33,662 nt of DNA, taken from NCBI GenBank assembly GCA_020832585.1, contig JAFIEL010000254.1, positions 1-33,662 on the forward strand, given 5' to 3'. The DNA is from Natronohydrobacter sp. (GTDB taxonomy: Bacteria; Pseudomonadota; Alphaproteobacteria; Rhodobacterales; Rhodobacteraceae). The notes under the pieces were generated by a model. That model searched no databases. It worked only from the letters and a program-made list of their open reading frames with translations, and had not been told where the DNA came from. A program made the translations under genes and the position numbers. Below, one piece after another: positions 13,072 to 27,493 of the stretch. Each line of letters opens with the position of its first letter. The first letter of the stretch is position 1.

Positions 13072-13124
13072 TGACGAACTTGTCCCATAGTGCTCCCTTC
13101 CATTCGTGGGAAAGGATCGCACCA

Positions 13125-13214
13125 TCAAACCGGGGGATCGAACCCCAGGACCCGCTCTCCTGAAACAGGCAATAGCATTCGTGTGCGCTGCAAACTCACA
13201 CGAAAATGGCTTGA
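13125..13214 (-). other. tRNA-like fold (acceptor-like stem and T-arm), not a canonical tRNA
   Basis: On the minus strand TCAAGCC (13214–13208) can pair with GGTTTGA (13131–13125), closing a region with three hairpins. The first is an 8-bp stem TTCGTGTG/CACACGAA, the second is CCTG-TTT-CAGG, and the third is a T-arm-like hairpin GGGG-TTCGATC-CCCC. The T-loop sequence is that of a tRNA, but there is no D-arm, no 7-base anticodon loop and no encoded CCA. It could be a decayed tRNA, a structured small RNA or chance. Confidence 0.25.
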
Positions 13215-13320
13215 GTCAGCTTGCGATCCATCAAGACGTGACCAAGCGCTTCTCCATGTGGGGCGCTTCGTGGGGCAAAGCGCCAAAAGGCAAATTTTCC
13301 CCAGTAAAATCAATGATAGG

Positions 13321-13342
13321 TGGCGGAGACGATGGAATTCGA
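13321..13342. other. attL, left copy of the tRNA-Ser 3' end
   Basis: The first 15 bases TGGCGGAGACGATGG and the last 6 ATTCGA match the 3' end of tRNA-Ser at 27404–27425; only the base between them differs (A here, G in the tRNA). This is the remnant of the original tRNA end displaced by integration. Confidence 0.85.
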
Positions 13343-13434
13343 CAAAAAGACAGACAGAAAGACACAACAGAAAAAACCGATCAAAAACAAGATGTTGTGA
13401 GAAAGACAACAACACACACAAGACGCACAGCGGG

Positions 13435-13462
13435 GCAGACACCGAGCAAAAACCGAGCAAAA
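13435..13462 (+). repeat. Left arm repeat: GCAGAC plus two tandem 11-mers
   Basis: GCAGAC followed by two head-to-tail copies of ACCGAGCAAAA. The same 28 bases recur exactly at 27300–27327, in the same orientation, close to the other att site. The location on both arms and the tandem 11-mers fit arm-type binding sites of the tyrosine integrase N-terminal domain. Confidence 0.65.
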
Positions 13463-13528
13463 AACCGCTTGAGAAAGACCCGCCACCCCGCCATGATGGG
13501 GGAGACATTGGCACACACAGGCGGACAC

Positions 13529-14833
13529 ATGAAGATTTACAGGCGGGGCAAAAAAGGGCTTTTCTGTTTGCGACTATGGATCCCCGAACACTACCGAGAG
13601 ATCGAGCCACGGCGGGATCTGTTTTTGACCCTACGCACAACAGACGAAGCGGAGGCACACCGCCGAGCCGTTGAGACGCGGGACGGCATTTTTGCAGACC
13701 TTGACCGCCGTCTTTCCGCCCGCCTTGCAACCGAGGGGACGGCGGCACACTACGACAGGATCCGAGACATCGCCACAGCCCATGGCCATCATTACAAGAC
13801 CAGCGAACAGATCGCAGAGGGGCCAATCGAAGACCTGATCTCACGCGTTTTGACATTGAAAAAGACAGACCCAAAAGCAGAGAGCAAAGAGACCACCGCC
13901 GCCTTGTTGGGAGGGGTGGAGCCGCCCAAAGTGATGATCTCTACCTTGTTTGCGGAGTATGAAAAGATCGCAACAGAAGAGATCGCCGGCAAGACCCCCG
14001 ACGCAATCCGCAGATGGAGAAACCCACGCCTGAAAGCCGCCGCCAATTTTGTGAAGGCGGTGGGAGACCGCCCCGTTTTGGACATAACCCGAGATGAAGC
14101 CTTGGACTTTCGCGGCTGGTGGTTGGACCGTTTGACAGACCCCGAAGAGGCCGCAGGAAGCCCAGGCACGGCCAACAAAGACATGATCCACCTTGGGGGC
14201 ATGATTGGGAAATTGTGCAGATTCAAAAGATGGACAGACCCCCGCGTGTTTGCAGGCCTTGCCCTGAAAGAGAAGAGCGGCAGAGCGATCCCGCCGTTTG
14301 ATAACGAATGGATCGCCGCCACCCTGATGTGTGAAAACCCGATCCCCGAGTTGGACAGGGAAGCCTTGGACGTTTTGCTAGTGATGGTGAACACAGGGGC
14401 GAGACCGAGCGAGATCCACGGCCTCACAGCCGAAGACATACGGCTAGACACACCGATCCCTTTCATTGACATAAACGACAAACACCGCACACTGAAAACC
14501 GAAGCGAGCAAGCGAAAGATCCCCTTGTGGGGGGTTGCCTTGGAGGCCATGAAACGGCGGCCTGATGGGTTCCCCACATACAGAGGGCGGGACCTATGGA
14601 GCACAATCACCAACCGCACAATTCGAAACACAGGCCTTTTCCCAACGCCCGACCACCGAGCCTACAGCCTACGCCACTCATTTGAAGACCGCATGATCGC
14701 AGAGGAGATCCCAGAGAGGATCGCGGCGGACATGATGGGCCACACGATACGCCGTGAAAGGTATGGCAAAGGGGCAAGCCTTGAGAAAAAACTGGAAGTG
14801 ATCCAACGCATAGCGATCACGCCCACCCGATAA
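13529..14833 (+). CDS. int: Tyrosine recombinase/integrase
   Basis: 434 residues from the ATG at 13529. The frame is open back to 13106, but that would run across attL and the arm repeat, and the family usually starts with a short basic strand like MKIYRRGKKGLFCLRLWIP. Catalytic residues of the phage-integrase domain are visible: R292 (GARPSE), the Lys region LKTEASKRKIPL, YSLRHSF with R382 (a Tyr at 379 stands where many relatives have His), H405 (MMGHT) and the nucleophile Y412 (RERYGKG). The N-terminal part should bind the arm sites. It integrates the element into, and with a directionality factor excises it from, tRNA-Ser. No excisionase is recognisable. Confidence 0.92.
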   Translation: MKIYRRGKKGLFCLRLWIPEHYREIEPRRDLFLTLRTTDEAEAHRRAVETRDGIFADLDRRLSARLATEGTAAHYDRIRDIATAHGHHYKTSEQIAEGPIEDLISRVLTLKKTDPKAESKETTAALLGGVEPPKVMISTLFAEYEKIATEEIAGKTPDAIRRWRNPRLKAAANFVKAVGDRPVLDITRDEALDFRGWWLDRLTDPEEAAGSPGTANKDMIHLGGMIGKLCRFKRWTDPRVFAGLALKEKSGRAIPPFDNEWIAATLMCENPIPELDREALDVLLVMVNTGARPSEIHGLTAEDIRLDTPIPFIDINDKHRTLKTEASKRKIPLWGVALEAMKRRPDGFPTYRGRDLWSTITNRTIRNTGLFPTPDHRAYSLRHSFEDRMIAEEIPERIAADMMGHTIRRERYGKGASLEKKLEVIQRIAITPTR

Positions 14834-15268: not shown

Positions 15269-15404
15269 CATGGCCTCATCATTTTTTTCTTTCTCAAAAC
15301 GAGATGGGGCCTTTTTTTGGCAACCGCCAAACACAGGCCACACCTGATTTGGACATGGCCAGCGAAGCAGGCCGCCCCGACAAATTGAGCGTAGCGAAAT
15401 ATGG

Positions 15405-15461
15405 AAGGGCGCACTTATGCAAACCAAGGTTTGCGGCGGCCAAAGGCCACCTGTGCGCCCT
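15405..15461 (-). other. oriT: Origin of transfer (IncQ-like oriT)
   Basis: On the minus strand an inverted repeat, GCAAACC-TT-GGTTTGC (15434–15419), is followed one base later by TAAGTGCGCCCTT (15417–15405). Inverted repeat plus TAAGTGCGCCCT is the layout of the R1162/RSF1010-type oriT as I remember it, and the relaxase here is of the matching MobA class. The nick would fall close to the end of the core. A second core-like TGTGCGCCCT is present on the + strand at 15452–15461, so the whole segment is an imperfect palindrome. Confidence 0.75.
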
Positions 15462-15529
15462 CACGCTACCGCTCCGGGAGGGGCGACCTTGCCAGGCCGC
15501 AAAAACACGAACGACAAAGACAAAAACGA

Positions 15530-17173
15530 ATGACAAAAAGCCACGCCGCCAACCATCACAGCATACAAACGATCCAGCGATCCGCAGGGCGATCATCTGT
15601 TGCGGCGGCGGCATACAGACACAACGCACGCATGACAGATGATCGCACGGGATTGACACACGACTTCAGACGAAAAGGCGACCTCATCGCCGAAGGGGTG
15701 ATCGGCTGGACCGACACCCCCGAAACGCTATGGAACGCCGCAGAACAGGCAGAGAATCGCAAGAATTCAATCACCGCACGGGAGATCGTTTTGGCCTTGC
15801 CCCACGAGTTGGACACGGCCACACAAGAGAGGCTGATCCGCGGCCATTGCCTGATGTTGCGGGACCGCTACGGGGTCGCCTGCAGTTGGGTTATTCACGA
15901 CCCTGAAAAGGGGCCAAACAGGAACAAGCACGCCCACATCATGATGACCTCCAGAGAGGTGAACGCGGCGGGCGAGTTTGGCAAGAAGACCCGCGTTTTG
16001 GACGACCGCAAAACAGGATCGGCAGAGTTTGAACACATGCGGGAAGCATGGGCAAAGCGAGCCAACGCGGCATTGAAAAAGGCGGGCGTGAAAGAGATGA
16101 TCGACCACAGATCGCACGCACGCAGAGCGGAAGCAGGAGAAGCCCCACCGCAGGAAAAACAAAGACACATGGGGCCACGCCTCACCGCCATCGCCCGCAA
16201 GCACGAAGCCGCCGCAGAGCAAGCCAGAGCACAGGGCAAGCCCGAGCCAATCGCCCCACGCTTTTTGAAAGAGGCGAAGCGGATCCGAGTCCGAAACGCG
16301 GCATTGTGGGGACTGTTTGACGCACACAAAACAGCACAGAGAGCAGCGAACACAGACGGCAAGATCGAAGACAGAGGGGACGGCATGGAAGCCCAGGCCA
16401 TTGAAGAAACCACCGCCTTGTTTGAGGCGGCCATGGCCTCACCTCTTTTTGTCTTTCGACTTGAAGACCGCAGACGCAGAGAGAAAGAAAGACAGAGACA
16501 GAGAGAGCAAGCGGCACGGCAAAGGCCGACCCAGCGACCGCCACAGAGACCACAGGGCGGCGGGGTTGTGCAGTTGAAGCACACAGGACAGGAGCGGCCA
16601 CACATCGCCCCACACGCCACGCCAGAGCCTACGCCCACGGCACAGGCAAAGAGGGAGAATGTGATCCCCTTGTTTGAACACAAAGCACAGCCCCAAGGGT
16701 TGGGACTTGTTGAGGCGTTGAAGAAGGGACTAGCCGAACAGGAGCCAGCGAGGCCGAAACCAAAGGCCAAGCCCCGCACACGCAAGGCCAAGACAGACCC
16801 ACAACAGCCAGGCCTTTTTGACAAGGTTTTGTCTTTCTTTACGCCGCCCAAGCCAGAGCCAGAAAGACAGACAGAACAGGACAGGGAGGGGCCGAAGCCT
16901 TGGCAACGGGTGGAGACACCCACGAAGCCACCAGAGCCACCACAGCGGCCACAGAAGCGGCCAGCGGAGCCACAGGCACGGACAACCACGCCGCAACCAC
17001 AGAGCAGGCACACAGACGAAGAGAGGGCGGCCATCATCGCCGAGGCCGCACGGGCCATGTTGCCAAAAGATGGAGAGAAGCCACGGCACACGCCGCCACA
17101 CTTACGAAGACCACCGCCCCCGCCAGTGTTGAAGCCCAGACGGGAACGGACACGAGGACCGCCACAGAGATGA
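15530..17173 (+). CDS. mobA: MobA/MobL family relaxase (MobQ type)
   Basis: 547 residues from the ATG at 15530; the upstream extension to 15401 crosses oriT and is not relaxase-like. The N-terminal domain has RSAGRSSVAAAAYRHNAR with the probable catalytic Tyr29, a helix-strand unit ending in SWVIHDPEKG, and the metal-binding NKHAHIMMTSREV (His134 and His136). This is motif III of the family. From about residue 210 the protein turns highly charged, then Pro/Gln/Arg-rich with low complexity and no primase domain that I can recognise. It nicks oriT and leads the strand during mobilization by a helper conjugation machine. No strong ribosome binding site is visible. Confidence 0.88.
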   Translation: MTKSHAANHHSIQTIQRSAGRSSVAAAAYRHNARMTDDRTGLTHDFRRKGDLIAEGVIGWTDTPETLWNAAEQAENRKNSITAREIVLALPHELDTATQERLIRGHCLMLRDRYGVACSWVIHDPEKGPNRNKHAHIMMTSREVNAAGEFGKKTRVLDDRKTGSAEFEHMREAWAKRANAALKKAGVKEMIDHRSHARRAEAGEAPPQEKQRHMGPRLTAIARKHEAAAEQARAQGKPEPIAPRFLKEAKRIRVRNAALWGLFDAHKTAQRAANTDGKIEDRGDGMEAQAIEETTALFEAAMASPLFVFRLEDRRRREKERQRQREQAARQRPTQRPPQRPQGGGVVQLKHTGQERPHIAPHATPEPTPTAQAKRENVIPLFEHKAQPQGLGLVEALKKGLAEQEPARPKPKAKPRTRKAKTDPQQPGLFDKVLSFFTPPKPEPERQTEQDREGPKPWQRVETPTKPPEPPQRPQKRPAEPQARTTTPQPQSRHTDEERAAIIAEAARAMLPKDGEKPRHTPPHLRRPPPPPVLKPRRERTRGPPQR

Positions 17174-19893: not shown

Positions 19894-21516
19894 ATGGACG
19901 ACATCACAAACATCATCAAAGAAGCAGAACAAAAAGCCCTCAAACTTTTTGGAGAGTTGAAAGAGCCAGAGCGAACAACGGCGATCTGTTCCCTTTTTGA
20001 CGAAAACGACAGCGGAAACGCCGCCCGCCTTGTGCTGAGGCATGGCCACCGATTCCGATATGTTGAAGCCAACGACGGCGGAAACTGGAGAGCGTTTGAC
20101 GGCAAGAGATGGATCGGCGGAAAAAGAGCCTTGGCAAGGATTGGCAACCTTGCAACGGACACCGCCCAGCACATCAAGAAAGAAACAAAGTTTTTGGCCC
20201 CAGGAAAAGACGCAACACAGGAAGAGATCGCACAAGCAGAAAGGCGAATCGCTTTTCGATACAAGCACGCCCTGAAAAGCGGAAACAATGCACAGGCCAA
20301 AGGCATGATCGACAAATCCAGCGGAGCGGTGATCGCAGATTTGGAAGAGTTTGACGACCCACAGAAAACCGCCTATTTGTTCAATGTTGCGAACGGCACG
20401 ATCGACTTGAGAACGGGCAAGATGAAGCGACACGATCCCGAAGACAGGATCACCATGATCTCAAACATCACATTTGACCCACAAGCCAAATGCCCAGAAT
20501 GGGATCGTTTTCTTTATTCCGTTTTGGAAGAAGACACGGAGATGAAGGCGTTTTTGGCAAGGTTGATCGGCTACACTCTACATGGCCACCAGCAGGAGGA
20601 GAATGTTGTTTTTATTTTGGGCAACGAGAAAGCCGAGAAGACAAACGGGAGCAACGGCAAAAGCAAACTGACAGAGGGGATCCGCCCCATTTTTGGGGAG
20701 TATGGCTGGACAGTCAAGCCCGCCCTGATTTGCAAAAACAAAAACAAGAACGACGAATCCAGCGACATCGCCGACCTTTTCCGAAAGAGGATCGCCATTG
20801 GCTCCGAATTCAAAGACACAGATGTTATTGAAGAGGACATTTTCAAGAGATCCACAGGCACAGACAAGATCAACGCCCGCAAGAAGTTTGGACATGCTTT
20901 TGAGTTTTACAGCACGGCCACCTTGTTCTATACAGCGAACAAGACACCCCGGATCGATTCCACAGACAACGGCGTTTTGAGGCGGCCCCTTTTCATACAG
21001 TTGGGGAGGGTGTTTTACAAAGAGCATGAACACCCCAACGGGATCCCAGAAGGCGGCCATGTTGCTGATCTCAAACTTGGAGAAAAACTGTTAGCAGAAA
21101 AGCAGGGGATCCTAGCATGGGCGATCAGGGGGGCTGTTGAGTATAACGCCGAAGGCCTGAAAACCCCCACAAAAGTGATGGAAGACAAACAGAGAAGAAT
21201 GCAAGGATTTGACCCCTTGGAGGAATGGCTCGAGGTTTGTGTGGAGGTTGCAGACGGCTGGAAGACAAAACAGATCGACCTTTTCGAGTCCTTTCAAAAC
21301 TTTTGTGAATTCAATGCAACCAAGGGGCAAAGAATGAGCCGCCAAGAGTTTGGGGACAGATTGGATCGCAAGGGTTGGGAAGGAAAGAAGATCAGCGGCA
21401 TGATCCAGCGGTTGGGCGTGAAACTGACACAACACGGCGAGCAATACGCAAAGAAGAACACGCCGATCATCACAGGGCAATCAGACAGGATCCAACACTT
21501 GCACCCCGTGAAATGA
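19894..21516 (+). CDS. D5/P4-type superfamily 3 replicative helicase
   Basis: 540 residues. The N-terminal D5_N-like domain has GNAARLVLRHGHRFRYVE and NWRAFDGKRWIGG (about residues 40–80). The SF3 ATPase has a Walker A loop TNGSNGKSK (250–258), a Walker B-like IAIGSE (about 303–308), and the sensor segment LFYTANKTPRIDS (343–355) ahead of LRRPLF with the arginine finger. Phage/plasmid primase-helicases of this class often carry an N-terminal primase domain; here it is absent, so priming must come from elsewhere. Ribosome binding site GAGGA precedes the ATG. It should unwind the origin for replication of the excised element. Confidence 0.87.
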   Translation: MDDITNIIKEAEQKALKLFGELKEPERTTAICSLFDENDSGNAARLVLRHGHRFRYVEANDGGNWRAFDGKRWIGGKRALARIGNLATDTAQHIKKETKFLAPGKDATQEEIAQAERRIAFRYKHALKSGNNAQAKGMIDKSSGAVIADLEEFDDPQKTAYLFNVANGTIDLRTGKMKRHDPEDRITMISNITFDPQAKCPEWDRFLYSVLEEDTEMKAFLARLIGYTLHGHQQEENVVFILGNEKAEKTNGSNGKSKLTEGIRPIFGEYGWTVKPALICKNKNKNDESSDIADLFRKRIAIGSEFKDTDVIEEDIFKRSTGTDKINARKKFGHAFEFYSTATLFYTANKTPRIDSTDNGVLRRPLFIQLGRVFYKEHEHPNGIPEGGHVADLKLGEKLLAEKQGILAWAIRGAVEYNAEGLKTPTKVMEDKQRRMQGFDPLEEWLEVCVEVADGWKTKQIDLFESFQNFCEFNATKGQRMSRQEFGDRLDRKGWEGKKISGMIQRLGVKLTQHGEQYAKKNTPIITGQSDRIQHLHPVK

Positions 21517-21557: not shown

Positions 21558-21705
21558 TTGTGAAAAGAAACAAAGGCCCTATGTTATACTGGAGCCGGGT
21601 GTTCGACAATGCAAGCAACGCCCCGCCAGCCCAAAGAGCTCAGAGTCGCCAAAAAAGATCTCACCCCCGCCGAGTCGCCACGGCGGGGGTTTTTCTTTTT
21701 GTTTC
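21558..21705 (+). ncRNA. Small RNA-like unit A
   Basis: Promoter TTGTGA, 16 bases, TATGTT (21558–21585), then a start expected near 21592 on GGAGCCGGGTG, and an intrinsic terminator CCCCCGCCG-loop-CGGCGGGGG plus TTTTTC at about 21670–21705. No open frame of note is inside. The first about 35 bases of the transcript are similar to unit B (GCCGGGT, TTC, ACAA). It lies between the helicase gene and a stand-alone copy of its N-terminal domain. Confidence 0.55.
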
Positions 21706-21753
21706 TGTTTTTCTCTACATCTTACAAAGACAGAAAGACAGAAAGGGCAAGAC

Positions 21754-22080
21754 ATGACCAAAGAGCAAATGATCACAATGATTGAAGAGGCGAAGCAAAG
21801 AGCCGAGCAAGAGATCCCCGACTTTTCAAGTTTTGATGAAGACAAGAAAGCAACGGCCATCTGTTCATTTTTCCCAGAGAGTCAAGACGGCAACCACGCC
21901 CGCCTCTTTTTGAGGTTTGGAGAGTTGATCTCTTTTGCACAAGCCCCTTGGGGATCCGAATGGTTGGCATATGATGGAAAGTGTTGGGTTGGAGGAGAAA
22001 AGGCCATAACCCTCATAGATGATATGTGCAAACAAACAGCGGCCAAGATTGTTGAAGAGATCCCGTTTCTGACAAACTGA
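21754..22080 (+). CDS. Stand-alone paralogue of the helicase N-terminal domain
   Basis: 108 residues, start supported by AAAGGG. It aligns over its full length with the first about 105 residues of the helicase: both have IIEEA/IKEAEQ near the start, TAICS(L/F)F, a G-N-x-ARL-x-LR pattern, EWLAYDGKCWVGGEKA against NWRAFDGKRWIGGKRA, and end in EIPF/ETKF. It stops there, with no ATPase domain. It might regulate the helicase by forming mixed complexes, or be a decoy for inhibitors. It is bounded by small RNA-like units A and B, so gene plus RNA may have been duplicated together. Confidence 0.75.
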   Translation: MTKEQMITMIEEAKQRAEQEIPDFSSFDEDKKATAICSFFPESQDGNHARLFLRFGELISFAQAPWGSEWLAYDGKCWVGGEKAITLIDDMCKQTAAKIVEEIPFLTN

Positions 22081-22088
22081 AAACGTTT

Positions 22089-22213
22089 TTGTTTTTTTCT
22101 CAAAAGGCCCTATGTTGTTTTTAGGCCGGGTTTTCAAGACAACCAGAAAGCCACGCCGCAGAAAACAGGATCCTGACCCCCAGCCCTCACAGGTTGGGGG
22201 TTTTTCTTTTTGT
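22089..22213 (+). ncRNA. Small RNA-like unit B
   Basis: Promoter TTGTTT, 16 bases, TATGTT (22089–22116), expected start near 22123 on AGGCCGGGTTTTC, terminator ACCCCCAGCC-loop-GGTTGGGGGT with TTTTTC at about 22175–22207. Same promoter spacing and the same AAAGGCCCTATGTT block as unit A, and a related 5' end. It directly follows the helicase-domain paralogue. Confidence 0.55.
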
Positions 22214-22350
22214 CTTTTTCTCGAAAGGCCCCATGTTGTTTTTGATTCCCGCCGCACAGGCGGCTTAGAAGAAGATGGGAAACCTACCCCCTCAAAACTT
22301 CCCGCCGCATAGGCGGACGCCCCCAGCCTTTTGGTTGGGGGTTTTTCTTT
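22210..22350 (+). ncRNA. Small RNA-like unit C with subtype I-F CRISPR-like repeats
   Basis: Promoter TTGTCT, 16 bases, CATGTT (22210–22237). The predicted +1 near 22244 is the first base of a 28-base stretch that matches the subtype I-F CRISPR repeat at 22 positions. The core GCCGCACAGGC and the 3' handle GCTTAGAA are exact, and the two stem changes are compensatory (CTGCC/GGCAG becomes CCGCC/GGCGG). A second, degenerate copy with loop GCATA follows 53 bases later, then an intrinsic terminator CCCCCAGCC-TTTT-GGTTGGGGG plus TTTTTC. No cas gene is in the window. Confidence 0.6.
22244..22314 (+). repeat. Two I-F CRISPR repeat-like hairpins
   Basis: First copy 22244–22271, second 22297–22314 (only the stem-loop and five bases before it are kept; the 3' handle is lost). 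Shared part: TTCCCGCCGCA(C/T)AGGCGG. The 25-base stretch between them is shorter than the about 32-base I-F spacer. This is a repeat-mimic or decayed mini-array, not a normal array. Confidence 0.55.
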
Positions 22351-22809: not shown

Positions 22810-22850
22810 CTTTCTCTTTTTTGGTTTTTTGTGTTCCGAAACATATTTGT
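22810..22850 (+). promoter_or_regulatory. Promoter with shared palindromic operator, site 1
   Basis: TGTTCCGAAACATATTTGT at 22832–22850, with a TTGGTT-type hexamer 15 bases before CATATT. The palindrome core TGTTCCGAAACA lies between the two promoter elements. Two more sites (23664–23682 and 25432–25450 minus) share the layout. It drives the gene at 22904. Confidence 0.6.
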
Positions 22851-23641: not shown

Positions 23642-23682
23642 TCATCTGTTTTTTGTTTTTACCTGTTCCGAAACATATTTGT
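23642..23682 (+). promoter_or_regulatory. Promoter with shared palindromic operator, site 2
   Basis: TGTTCCGAAACATATTTGT at 23664–23682, identical to site 1 over 19 bases, with TTGTTT 15 bases before CATATT. It lies 30 bases upstream of the three-gene operon at 23712. Confidence 0.65.
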
Positions 23683-23711: not shown

Positions 23712-24035
23712 ATGGCAAACTTCAAGACAAAAGCAAACGACGACACAAAGCGGGCCGCCTTGGCCCTGTTTGAGGCGGCACAGAAAGACGGAGAGATCCG
23801 CCCTTGGTTTTTTCAGTCAGACGGCCACGCAATGGAAAACCTACGCCCAGCCGTTTTGATGTTGTTGAAATGGGGAGCCATCGAAAGGGTGGGCATAACC
23901 CAAACCTACAGGCTGGGCCTTTTTTCCGCACACCAGCGGGCCAGCATTTTGAAAGCGTTGGCAACAAAGCCACGCACAGAGAGCGACGAAGACAGGGCCG
24001 CCCGCGTTTGGGCAACCCGCCGCCGCATGTTTTGA
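23712..24035 (+). CDS. Hypothetical protein of a repeated domain family, copy 1
   Basis: 107 residues from the ATG at 23712, with GGGAGG eight bases upstream. Pattern: an N-terminal helix KRAALALFEAAQKDG, then LLKWGAIERVGITQTYRL and SAHQRASILKALA. The two following genes repeat this pattern (A-rich helix, a LKxxGAI-type turn followed by a beta pair, then an AHQRAxI helix), which is what a small winged-helix domain looks like. No known family. First gene of an operon of three. Confidence 0.65.
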   Translation: MANFKTKANDDTKRAALALFEAAQKDGEIRPWFFQSDGHAMENLRPAVLMLLKWGAIERVGITQTYRLGLFSAHQRASILKALATKPRTESDEDRAARVWATRRRMF

Positions 24036-24047
24036 GGGGGCCACACA

Positions 24048-24299
24048 ATGGACAGACAGACAAAGCAAGCCGCCGCCGACTTTTGGCATGTTGTGCAACA
24101 GGGCCAAAGCCTTTTTGCAGACATGACGCTAGGACACTCAAAAGAAGCCGCACAGGGGGCTTTTGAGTTTTTGACACAGGCGGGGGCCATCGAAGCGAAC
24201 ACAGGCTGGACAGGCACGATCTACGCCCCCAAGCACACCACCGCACACCAGCGGGCCGCCATTTTGAAAACACTGCAGACAGAGGAGCCAAGCAGATGA
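24048..24299 (+). CDS. Hypothetical protein of the repeated domain family, copy 2
   Basis: 83 residues, 12 bases after copy 1. QAAADFWHVVQQGQ, then FLTQAGAIEANTGWTGTIYA, then TTAHQRAAILKTLQ aligns with copy 1. The stop overlaps the next ATG by four bases (ATGA). Function unknown; a winged-helix DNA-binding role is a structural guess. Confidence 0.6.
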   Translation: MDRQTKQAAADFWHVVQQGQSLFADMTLGHSKEAAQGAFEFLTQAGAIEANTGWTGTIYAPKHTTAHQRAAILKTLQTEEPSR

Positions 24300-25401: not shown

Positions 25402-25431
25402 TGCGTTGATCCTTTTTGTCTTTCTTTCAAA

Positions 25432-25474
25432 CATATATGTTCCGAAACAGAAAAAGACAAAAAAGACAGGAGGA
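25432..25474 (-). promoter_or_regulatory. Promoter with shared palindromic operator, site 3
   Basis: On the minus strand TGTTTCGGAACATATATGT (25450–25432), with TTGTCT 15 bases before CATATA. The palindrome is the reverse complement of sites 1 and 2 in its core, and the flank ACATAT is kept on the same side, so all three sites read TGTTYCGRAACATATWTGT toward their gene. Confidence 0.6.
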
Positions 25475-25957
25475 TCAGCGTTGAATGTCAGGAGCCAAAG
25501 TGTTCAAAAACATTGCCCTTGACACCTTCGCATTTTTTCCAAGCCTTCCCTGTTCATGCCATCGCAAAACATTTTGAACAGGAACAACAAAAACATCAAC
25601 CACAGGAAAGCCTACAATGTCCGAGAGAATGAAGCCCCGAATGTCCGCCAGTTTTCTTTGAAAACCGTCTTCATTGAAAACGCGGCCAGCCCCGACTTGA
25701 GCCGAGGGGTTGAAATAAACACCACCTCTTGTGATGGATCGGACTTCCCATTTGTTGCCATCTGGATCCATCAAATCATAACCAGCCCCTTCAGATGGAG
25801 CGAGAGACCAGCCCGGGTTTTCCCACTTGAGTCGCCGTTCAATGATAAACGACACCCGCCGCCCGTCAGTCAGGTATTCCCTCACATCAGAGGTCTGGAC
25901 TTTGAAAGCCCGAGCCAGTTCCTGTTCATCCCAAGTCAGTTGAAATCTGTTTTCCAT
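25475..25957 (-). CDS. Probable type II restriction endonuclease (PD-(D/E)XK-like)
   Basis: 160 residues with a clear ribosome binding site (GGGGAA). GYDLMDPDGNKWEVRSIT around residues 59–76 (D61 and E71-V-R73) looks like the acidic pair of a PD-(D/E)XK nuclease with Arg in place of the usual Lys. It then has VYFNPSAQVGAGRVF and a hydrophobic strand VVDVFVVPV. It lies 51 bases after the DNA methyltransferase on the same strand, which is the main support for the assignment. Its size is small for a type II enzyme but not unheard of. It could also be a controller of unknown type. Confidence 0.6.
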   Translation of the reverse strand: MENRFQLTWDEQELARAFKVQTSDVREYLTDGRRVSFIIERRLKWENPGWSLAPSEGAGYDLMDPDGNKWEVRSITRGGVYFNPSAQVGAGRVFNEDGFQRKLADIRGFILSDIVGFPVVDVFVVPVQNVLRWHEQGRLGKNAKVSRAMFLNTLAPDIQR

Positions 25958-26008: not shown

Positions 26009-27238
26009 TCAATTGCGGCGGAGCAACACGATCCTGTTTGTGTTTGTGCCTTTCGAGCCATTGGAGACGCCCCAACAGTTGGCCGTTTTGGTGAAGGTTT
26101 GATCGTTGATCATCACGCCAAGACGCTCAAAGGGAAGACCGTCAGCCGCCGCCCATACGAGCCGCTCAAGCAACACCTTCCCGTTTCTTACCTCACCCAC
26201 CTCAAAAGCCACATGGCCGCCAGGGCGGAGAATGCGGGCTTGTTCTTTCAGAACATCATGAACCATGGCCGTCCATGCCTCTTCCGTCCTGTGATGGGCG
26301 ATCTTGACCGCTTGCGAGTCAATCCCCGCAAACCAACACCGCAGCCAATTGTCTTGGGCATATTGCACAATGTCGAGAAACGGCGGCGAAGTGATCACAA
26401 GGGAAACCGAGCCAGATTCAATGTTGGGCGTTTCCCATGCGTTGCCAGTGTGCAGAGACCAACCCACTGCAGAAGGAACAGGGCCATCTTTGAGAAGGGT
26501 TTTTGTCTTTTTCGCAATGACCGCCCGAATGTCCCGAACAGGAGGAGACACGCCAAGTTTTTCATTGATCTTGACTTGGGCCGCCACAGACACCGCTTGA
26601 TTGGGCGGCATGGAACGCCCCGAGAAGAAGCCGGGAGAATGTCCAGACAGGCGATTTATCGAGACCATGCGGATCCAGTCCGCAACAGGATCGGGGCTTT
26701 TCTCTTCAAGTGGAGCGGCCACGGCCAGCCAATCCCGCAGAGCCTCCAGCCCTTTCAATGTTTCAGGGTGATAGAAGGCCAAGAGATCATCACGGCGAAT
26801 TTCACCACAAGACAAATCAATGTCCGCAAGGCGGCGGGAAACTTCAGCAGCATTGATCGGACGAAGGCGGGGACGGGTCAGCAAGACAGACAAAGGGTTT
26901 ATGTCATTGCCCGAGGCCACACGCCCCATCAGGGCCGCCTGAACAGGAGTTGTCCCCCGCCCCATGAAAGGGTCATGGACGGCCTCACCAACACCCGACA
27001 GGCGAGAGATGAAGAACGCAGGGAGTTGGGCTTTGAAACAAGCCCTGTAGGACACTTCATGGATGGAGTGGGCTTGGCGTTGCCCCGCGGTCCAAAACTC
27101 ATTGACGAAGTAAGGGATCCCCTCCAGCGTTTCACACTGTGTTGGTTTCCCAAAATCACCAAAGGCAACAACCGCCTTGATGAAATCATCAGGAGCAACA
27201 GGGGCGGCGGGTGTTTCAAACAGTGAAAGTTGATTCAT
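26009..27238 (-). CDS. DNA methyltransferase (N4-cytosine/N6-adenine type)
   Basis: 409 residues. The AdoMet-binding motif I is HDPFMGRGTTPVQAAL (88–103) and the catalytic motif IV is TSPPFLD (283–289), a form common in N4-cytosine enzymes. A late strand RPGGHVAFEVGEV (338–350) follows. Motif I precedes motif IV by nearly 190 residues, which hold the likely target recognition part; in most enzymes with SPP(Y/F) motif IV comes first, so the order is circularly permuted relative to those. It modifies DNA and would protect the host from the endonuclease encoded next. It starts about 165 bases from tRNA-Ser. Confidence 0.85.
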   Translation of the reverse strand: MNQLSLFETPAAPVAPDDFIKAVVAFGDFGKPTQCETLEGIPYFVNEFWTAGQRQAHSIHEVSYRACFKAQLPAFFISRLSGVGEAVHDPFMGRGTTPVQAALMGRVASGNDINPLSVLLTRPRLRPINAAEVSRRLADIDLSCGEIRRDDLLAFYHPETLKGLEALRDWLAVAAPLEEKSPDPVADWIRMVSINRLSGHSPGFFSGRSMPPNQAVSVAAQVKINEKLGVSPPVRDIRAVIAKKTKTLLKDGPVPSAVGWSLHTGNAWETPNIESGSVSLVITSPPFLDIVQYAQDNWLRCWFAGIDSQAVKIAHHRTEEAWTAMVHDVLKEQARILRPGGHVAFEVGEVRNGKVLLERLVWAAADGLPFERLGVMINDQTFTKTANCWGVSNGSKGTNTNRIVLLRRN

Positions 27239-27299
27239 GACGAATGTTTAGCATGCCCACAAGATCTGTACAAGCCCAAATCGCACACAGACGAGCAGA

Positions 27300-27327
27300 G
27301 CAGACACCGAGCAAAAACCGAGCAAAA
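27300..27327 (+). repeat. Right arm repeat: GCAGAC plus two tandem 11-mers
   Basis: Exact copy of the 28 bases at 13435–13462. It ends 76 bases before attR, while the left copy starts 92 bases after attL. Confidence 0.65.
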
Positions 27328-27403: not shown

Positions 27404-27425
27404 TGGCGGAGACGATGGGATTCGA
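27404..27425. other. attR, 3' end of tRNA-Ser
   Basis: Right copy of the 22-base border repeat. It forms the CCA, acceptor 3' strand and part of the T-arm of the intact tRNA-Ser gene. Confidence 0.85.
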
Positions 27426-27493
27426 ACCCACGAGACCCTTCCGGGCCTACTCCCTTAGCAGGGGAGCGCCTTCGACCACTCGGCCACATCTCC
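27404..27493 (-). tRNA. tRNA-Ser (anticodon GCU)
   Basis: 90 bases including an encoded CCA. The acceptor stem GGAGATG pairs with CGTCTCC (one U·G). D-arm starts TGGCCGAGTGGT, the anticodon loop is CTGCTAA in the stem CTCCC/GGGAG, a long variable arm of class II (TAGGCCCGGAAGGGTCTC region) follows, then the T-arm GTGGG-TTCGAAT-CCCAT. The 3' end is the element's attachment site and is restored by the insertion, so the gene should still work. Confidence 0.96.

Follow-up and report, generated by a model that had tools for sequence, protein, structure and literature searches.

A predicted small RNA on an alphaproteobacterial mobile element displays two hairpins of the I-F Cas6f type, and we tentatively propose that it is an RNA anti-CRISPR-like decoy, a twin-repeat variant that travels without cas genes on an integrative mobilizable element. 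We put the probability of this reading at roughly 0.47. The RNA, unit 3 of a three-cassette series, spans positions 22244-22342 (plus strand) of the window, by which we mean the whole 33,662-nucleotide stretch of Natronohydrobacter sp. DNA that was analysed. We infer that unit 3 is transcribed, that its product binds Cas proteins and that it inhibits them.

Positions 22244-22271 agree with the Rfam CRISPR-DR4 consensus at 22/28 positions in an ungapped count, which bears out the 22-position match to the I-F repeat claimed by an earlier, sequence-only reading of this DNA; the model's own alignment covers 22245-22271 with one gap. The match scores 28.7 bits against RF01317 (CRISPR-DR4), below the gathering cut-off of 35 bits, with an E-value of 7e-4 for 1,451 bases and of 3.9e-4 when its own whole genome is the search space. 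At gathering thresholds, Rfam found only a tRNA and no CRISPR family in the window region. The 28-mers of the window were also scored against three I-F repeat strings and one invented variant. The same 28-mer ranked first with the general I-F string (21, runner-up 18), the Pectobacterium-type string (20, runner-up 17) and the invented variant (24, runner-up 18); with the P. aeruginosa-type string it was tied at 18 and not ahead.

Hairpin 1 (22249-22263, plus strand; CCGCC-GCACA-GGCGG) has the 5-bp stem and GNNNA loop of the I-F Cas6f type and is followed by the 8-nt 3' handle CTTAGAAG (22264-22271, plus strand). The stem change from U-A to C-G is compensatory, as had been claimed, and conservation of the I-F repeat is poor in its 5' part. 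Next comes a 25-nt spacer-like stretch (22272-22296, plus strand), for which no CC-flanked target in the window scored above shuffles. Copy 2 begins 53 nt after copy 1; its hairpin (22302-22316, plus strand; CCGCC-GCATA-GGCGG) has the loop GCATA in place of GCACA, and its handle is gone (ACGCCCCC). An intrinsic terminator lies at 22319-22342 (plus strand). The degenerate second copy, the 25-nt gap, the lost handle and the terminator of the sequence-only reading are therefore all present, and its word "solitary" is wrong, since the hairpin 53 nt downstream makes a pair. Its view that this is not a normal array agrees with our findings: type I-F arrays have identical repeats, a spacing of ~60 nt and cas genes, whereas here the spacing is 53 nt, copy 2 has no handle and the genome has no detectable Cas6f.

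The repeat match lies outside coding genes, on a ~14 kb element flanked by two copies of the tRNA-Ser(GCT) 3' end. The left attachment core (13321-13335) is a copy of that 3' end, and the right core (27404-27418) lies within the tRNA-Ser(GCT) gene (27404-27493). G+C content is mostly 0.45-0.60 in the element and 0.60-0.68 in the DNA to its right. On the plus strand the element encodes a tyrosine integrase (ORF 13106-14833, with domains from about 13535 and a true start that is probably internal), a MobA/MobL (MobQ-like) relaxase (15401-17173; NCBIfam MobQ 185 bits, just under the cut-off of 200), a P4-type (D5_N) primase-helicase (19894-21516) and a 108-aa paralogue of the primase N-terminus (21754-22080; 39% identity). 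A restriction-modification pair on the minus strand adjoins the tRNA end: a type II restriction enzyme (25475-25957; PDLC03550, E 6e-86, no PHROGs match) and a type II DNA methyltransferase (26009-27238). The element is an integrative mobilizable element with restriction-modification cargo. No cas gene was found among the window proteins scanned, in line with the original claim, and the small window ORFs matched no anti-CRISPR family in PHROGs or NCBIfam. The unit region had no blastn match in phages and plasmids and, as DNA against 295 genomes of the family, was found only in its own genome; the primase protein had no confirmed match among viral and genome contigs. Near-palindromic TGTTCCGAAACATAT-type sites at 22832-22850, 23664-23682 and 25429-25450 precede small ORFs and are possibly operators. 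Direct repeats of 34 nt (94%) lie just within both element ends (13429-13462 and 27294-27327) and are possibly integrase arm sites.

Unit 3 ends a run of three tandem cassettes (21572-22342) that have the motif AAAGGCCCYATGTT in common, differ in their bodies and each end in an intrinsic terminator. Unit 1 spans 21572-21697 and unit 2, with a similar terminator, spans 22103-22202 (both plus strand). The motif occurs exactly three times in the window, each time 5' of an RNA-like cassette, where 0.02 occurrences are expected (one mismatch allowed). Upstream of unit 3, a promoter-like stretch (22210-22237, plus strand) combines TTGTCT-16-CATGTT, read by eye, with the common motif at 22224-22237 and places the predicted +1 near 22244. 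A sigma-70 consensus scan listed no promoter upstream of unit 3. The putative promoter of the earlier claim, with its +1 on the repeat, rests on the motif and on these boxes.

This arrangement brings in another reading, in which unit 3 acts in trans as an ordinary small RNA, one of a series of three, and regulates the element's own genes, with the hairpins as stabilisers and the C-rich linker pairing with ribosome-binding sites. The three tandem units, with their common promoter motif and a terminator each, fit it, as does a 12-nt stretch at 24029-24040 that perfectly complements the linker and falls on the Shine-Dalgarno region of the ORF at 24048. However, the best duplex (-22.9 kcal/mol) was equalled by 170/1000 shuffled linkers and is not significant, and regulation of this kind leaves the handle and its recurrence in sister elements unexplained. 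We consider this reading improbable.

We searched for relatives of the element in the family of the window genome, which in our genome set includes Litorivita pollutaquae and belongs to the order Rhodobacterales. Under strict filters, RF01317 matches at E-values up to 10 occurred in 142/198 family genomes, which is noise level among the matches listed. At 25 bits or more, the matches listed in these 198 genomes comprised five loci: an array-like one in genome G135, the window, contig 15 of G134, and loci in G183 and G192. The window and G134 contig 15 belong to the window's element lineage. REP-like repeats were considered and rejected; the strong RF01317 matches of G192, G074 and G135 are single-locus among the matches listed.

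The primase offered a route that did not use the hairpin. It matched 46 of 295 family genomes, with G134 (E 4e-86) and G189 (L. pollutaquae FSX-11; 1e-82) far ahead of the next (2e-39). Both carry the hairpin near the primase, at ~2 kb in G134 and ~2.5 kb in G189, where it scores 22.4 bits against RF01317. Because these two genomes were picked without any hairpin search, both closest relatives bear the motif independently of how they were chosen. A third sister, from an uncultured Sulfitobacter, was found through its hairpin and has a related primase ~4.1 kb off on the same contig. It came from a hairpin-pattern search that returned at least 118 stretches, of which those with two matches or fewer were sifted and ten were inspected closely. 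Many single alphaproteobacterial hairpin matches appeared coding and were dropped, and an ambiguous hairpin in a Rhodobacteraceae MAG (L073), overlain by ORFs, was left out of the sister set. As a separate observation, hairpin repeats resembling I-F, with no I-F cas genes near them, were seen on Rhodobacterales chromosomes and plasmids (L193:6433-7683, L194:5081-7023, L034:1501-1700, L038, L042 and L037:1501-1528), several as tandem units of 88-245 nt; those of L193 reach 39.4 bits, above the Rfam cut-off.

In the sisters the hairpin sits not in a cassette like unit 3 but in an RNA of ~200 nt that has an outer stem of 13 bp as well as a terminator and is 85% identical between G134 and Litorivita. 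Across the three sister RNAs, 14/15 hairpin columns and 6/8 handle columns are invariant, against 0/8 and 1/6 in the flanks. The stem is that of hairpin 1, the loop is GCAYA and the handles are CTTAGAAA, CTTAGTAA and CTTCGAAA. No two-sided pair changes occur among the three RNAs; the hairpin is retained inside a larger fold. Searched against 275 genomes, the G134 RNA matched 18, full-length only in G134 and Litorivita; the other 16 matches are short pieces, mostly of the 3' terminator end. It matched no plasmid or phage.

In all three sister elements the RNA and an ardC-type anti-restriction gene are oriented towards each other; the gene directly adjoins the RNA in G134 and Sulfitobacter and lies ~0.4 kb away in Litorivita, with a small ORF possibly between. 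Restriction or modification genes lie nearby: DNA methylases in G134, type I M and S subunits in Litorivita and a type IIG enzyme in Sulfitobacter. ArdC aids plasmids past restriction, according to the available portion of PMC7213743. The Litorivita element also holds, near its restriction genes, a sub-threshold match to the Rfam abiF RNA (L031:14879-14930, plus strand; 32.2 bits, cut-off 37). Separately, eight Rhodobacterales plasmids (L178-L185) conserve a long hairpin and terminator within ~200 nt 3' of ardC, amid variable neighbour genes. Among these ardC-locus plasmid relatives (8 of 249 records), none had a CRISPR-family match, and homology of their hairpin to the sister RNA was rejected because it is a different conserved hairpin that aligns poorly.

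The case for a decoy runs into the CRISPR content of the family. Cas6f (PF09618) was absent from the window's own genome (0/1), from all 295 family genomes and, at E-values up to 10, from the eight hairpin-bearing genomes; it was present in 1/337 genomes of the class. Csy3 (PF09615) was found in 0/275 family genomes. Cas1 occurred in 2/9 genomes (G189 and G183) and was not found in the window's own assembly, which is 86.6% complete. The sequence-only reading had named a lack of I-F systems in related hosts as evidence against itself, and this sample contained none. Given the absence of Cas6f and Csy3 from the genomes sampled, a chromosomal I-F target within the family is unlikely on present data. 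It is possible that the target is plasmid-borne or lies outside the family: I-F systems exist on plasmids of Acetobacter, another alphaproteobacterium, so their absence from the family sample is not decisive.

Folding predictions add to the difficulty. In the predicted fold of the whole of unit 3, the arms of the two hairpins cross-pair (~0.72) and the local hairpins form at 0.12 and 0.25. For hairpin 1 by itself, in the nascent RNA, local folding is predicted at 0.46. This cross-pairing and the absence of Cas6f (0/295) and Csy3 (0/275) are the main obstacles to a decoy. The original proposal of a repeat-mimic decoy on a cas-less mobile element survives in part. The hairpin and a similar handle recur near an anti-restriction gene in the two closest primase relatives; the repeat is twin rather than solitary, and I-F systems are missing from the family sample.

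Because similar tandem hairpins with varying tails occur at Rhodobacterales loci without Cas6f, the motif may serve another role. The hairpin and CTTAGAA could serve a non-Cas Rhodobacterales factor as a binding site or structural module, with a convergent likeness to I-F repeats and with the sisters displaying the hairpin on a large conserved RNA scaffold. This would suit a family sample lacking I-F, as well as the repeated hairpins, variable in their tails, of G135, G192, G074 and Sulfitobacter OXR-159 and Roseovarius indicus plasmids, and the single hairpin in G183; tblastn with eight I-F Cas proteins found nothing on the stretches examined around these hairpins. The 13-bp outer stem of the sister RNAs likewise exceeds what a decoy needs. 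Yet it is in I-F repeats that a GNNNA loop, a C-G foot and a CTTAGAAA handle come together, and we know of no other protein that binds this combination. Some of these loci are also on mobile DNA, with an integrase adjacent on a conjugative plasmid and, 5.5 kb from the hairpin of G183, a MobV match below threshold, and phages bear short-spacing pairs of bona fide I-F repeats. We hold a non-Cas factor to be unlikely, at perhaps one chance in a few.

The two-repeat short-spacing I-F pattern was found on 23 viral contigs, and the canonical 60-nt spacing on 59. The 23 contigs, which include three near-copy pairs (L205/L208, L212/L220 and L213/L224), were parsed into 30 unit rows with spacings of 42-55 nt, 26 of them at 42-43 or 46-49; five contigs (L213, L214, L224, L229 and L230) carry three to five short-spaced repeats. 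CTTAGAA is kept after the second copy in 10/30 units (L208 excluded, window included). In every row, at least 5/60 shuffles equalled the best local CC-flanked match. With eight I-F Cas proteins (Csy1, Csy3, Cas6f, Cas1, Cas3), tblastn found nothing on the 23 viral pieces (204 kb) and matched 5/5 control loci. Of the 23 pieces, 17 supplied 20 neighbour ORFs for scanning, ten in PHROGs (terminase, tail-fibre, spanin-like, head-morphogenesis and unknown-function families, or none) and ten in NCBIfam (one Dam methylase, nine without a match). The L205 unit adjoins terminase and head-tail adaptor genes and has TTGACA-15-TATAAT as its promoter-like stretch. L205 and L208 alike combine such a stretch with two repeats at a spacing of 50 nt and a terminator, and neither has a target above shuffles. 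The L205 hairpins fold locally in a 124-nt stretch without the terminator (0.88-0.97), and in a 170-nt stretch the minimum-energy prediction pairs them with each other.

A Cas7f step is 6 nt, and the viral spacings clustered near 42 and 48 would fit the loss of such steps from 60; the window's spacing of 53 would fit less well. It is conceivable, though on balance doubtful, that RNA anti-CRISPRs of a distinct class occur on phages and mobilizable elements: in these, paired I-F repeats around a spacer of 14-27 nt, processed like a crRNA, would recruit fewer Cas7f subunits and have no usable target, with the window as the Rhodobacterales member; such a class would have been overlooked by screens that set pairs aside. 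Among the literature matches listed, in a body of text thin on subscription papers and preprints, no paper described paired short-spacer decoys. As its rules are given in the available part of PMC10651486, the published finder treats full matches within 100 bp of one another as an array and drops them, and it likewise rejects candidates that have a partial match in 100 bp of flanking sequence. Close pairs therefore fall outside its count and would probably be discarded; its single-repeat rule admits no copy within 100 bp, and in unit 3 copy 2 follows at 53 nt.

The twin layout, which recurs on phages, also resembles I-F creA, apart from the target, of which unit 3 showed none. Two twin units from the same hairpin-pattern search, L137:4305 (minus strand, Neisseriaceae MAG) and L154:6200 (plus strand, Veillonellaceae MAG), sit between cas3 and csy1, as does the creTA module of Acinetobacter (PMC10097628, available part), and are I-F creTA candidates. 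Their repeat spacing is 47-48 nt, the handle is lost in copy 2, and their spacers match nearby CC-flanked targets at 18/20 and 15/19 positions, equalled by 0/300 shuffles. The unit 3 spacer had no such target within 700 nt, where 300/300 shuffles did equally well, or within 9 kb, where 194/200 were as good. Since the targets of L137 and L154 were recovered, the test is valid for creA-like units and negative for the window. In a separate case, a two-repeat I-F mini-array beside a MobA/MobL gene on a Selenomonas MAG contig (L149:1632-1710, plus strand) has a spacer with 24/32 positions in agreement with a CC-flanked site within the MobA/MobL gene (0/300 shuffles).

CreR is a mini-CRISPR RNA that represses cas. 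Unit 3 could be a CreA- or CreR-like guide, whose two degenerate repeats and short spacer would direct the host's Csy complex to a promoter at another site. The layout is that of the candidates in the cas3-csy1 gaps, and the CreA of Acinetobacter has a 20-nt spacer (PMC10097628, available part; further creTA background in the available parts of PMC9458426 and PMC8501985). With no CC-flanked target at either distance, though the test finds control targets, and no cas locus present, we regard a guide as very unlikely.

We return to the decoy. Cas6f of an I-F system in the recipient cell or on a co-resident plasmid would bind and cut both hairpins of unit 3, yielding a product of an 8-nt handle, the 25-nt spacer and a 20-nt 3' hairpin part, ~53 nt instead of 60. 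This product could tie up Cas6f, Cas7f and perhaps Cas5f/Cas8f in short target-less complexes, and so shield an incoming element that itself carries restriction-modification genes. As only ~5 nt of predicted RNA precede hairpin 1, the product would be crRNA-like, unlike RacrIF1, and short complexes rather than a RacrIF1-type filament would therefore be expected.

If true, repeat mimicry extends beyond solitary repeats, and paired-repeat short-spacer RNAs are a second layout, carried by phages and by mobilizable islands with restriction-modification, whose sisters have anti-restriction genes. Because the published screen, by the rules in its available text, sets pairs aside, counts of RNA anti-CRISPRs would then be too low. 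The puzzle is why elements in a family without detectable I-F retain an I-F-type hairpin and handle.

Several known systems resemble the window in part. Virus-borne mini-CRISPR arrays (PMC11656645, available part) likewise have one or two spacers and no cas genes, but their repeats are identical to those of the host and their spacers are mostly directed against related viruses. The I-F CreA of Acinetobacter (PMC10097628, available part), L137 and L154 share with the window two degenerate repeats around a 19-25 nt spacer, and the second copy lacks its handle in L137, L154 and the window alike; unlike CreA/CreTA, the window has no CC-flanked target above shuffles, no cas operon and no identified CreT candidate. 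The units of the 23 viral contigs differ in their setting, in having two to five repeats and in their CTGCC stems (except L205/L208), and resemble the window in their spacing (42-55 nt, window 53), an often handle-less last copy, a terminator-like T-run that often follows and the lack of a local target above shuffles. In RacrIF1, as described in the available portion of PMC10651486, the hairpin binds Cas6f and the RNA 5' of the cut captures Cas7f; type I-F is inhibited by RacrIF1 and also by a non-targeting crRNA, and among published cases with a cas operon in the host, the subtype matches that of the host in ~83%. Unit 3 departs from RacrIF1 in its two repeats, in its spacer of 25 nt and in the lack of I-F hosts among the family genomes sampled. 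With RacrIF1 and the solitary repeat units of Camara-Wilpert 2023 (PMC10651486, same portion) it shares a repeat-like hairpin, a conserved C-G foot, a promoter-like stretch upstream, in the sister RNAs an anti-restriction gene close by, and a place on a mobile element without cas genes.
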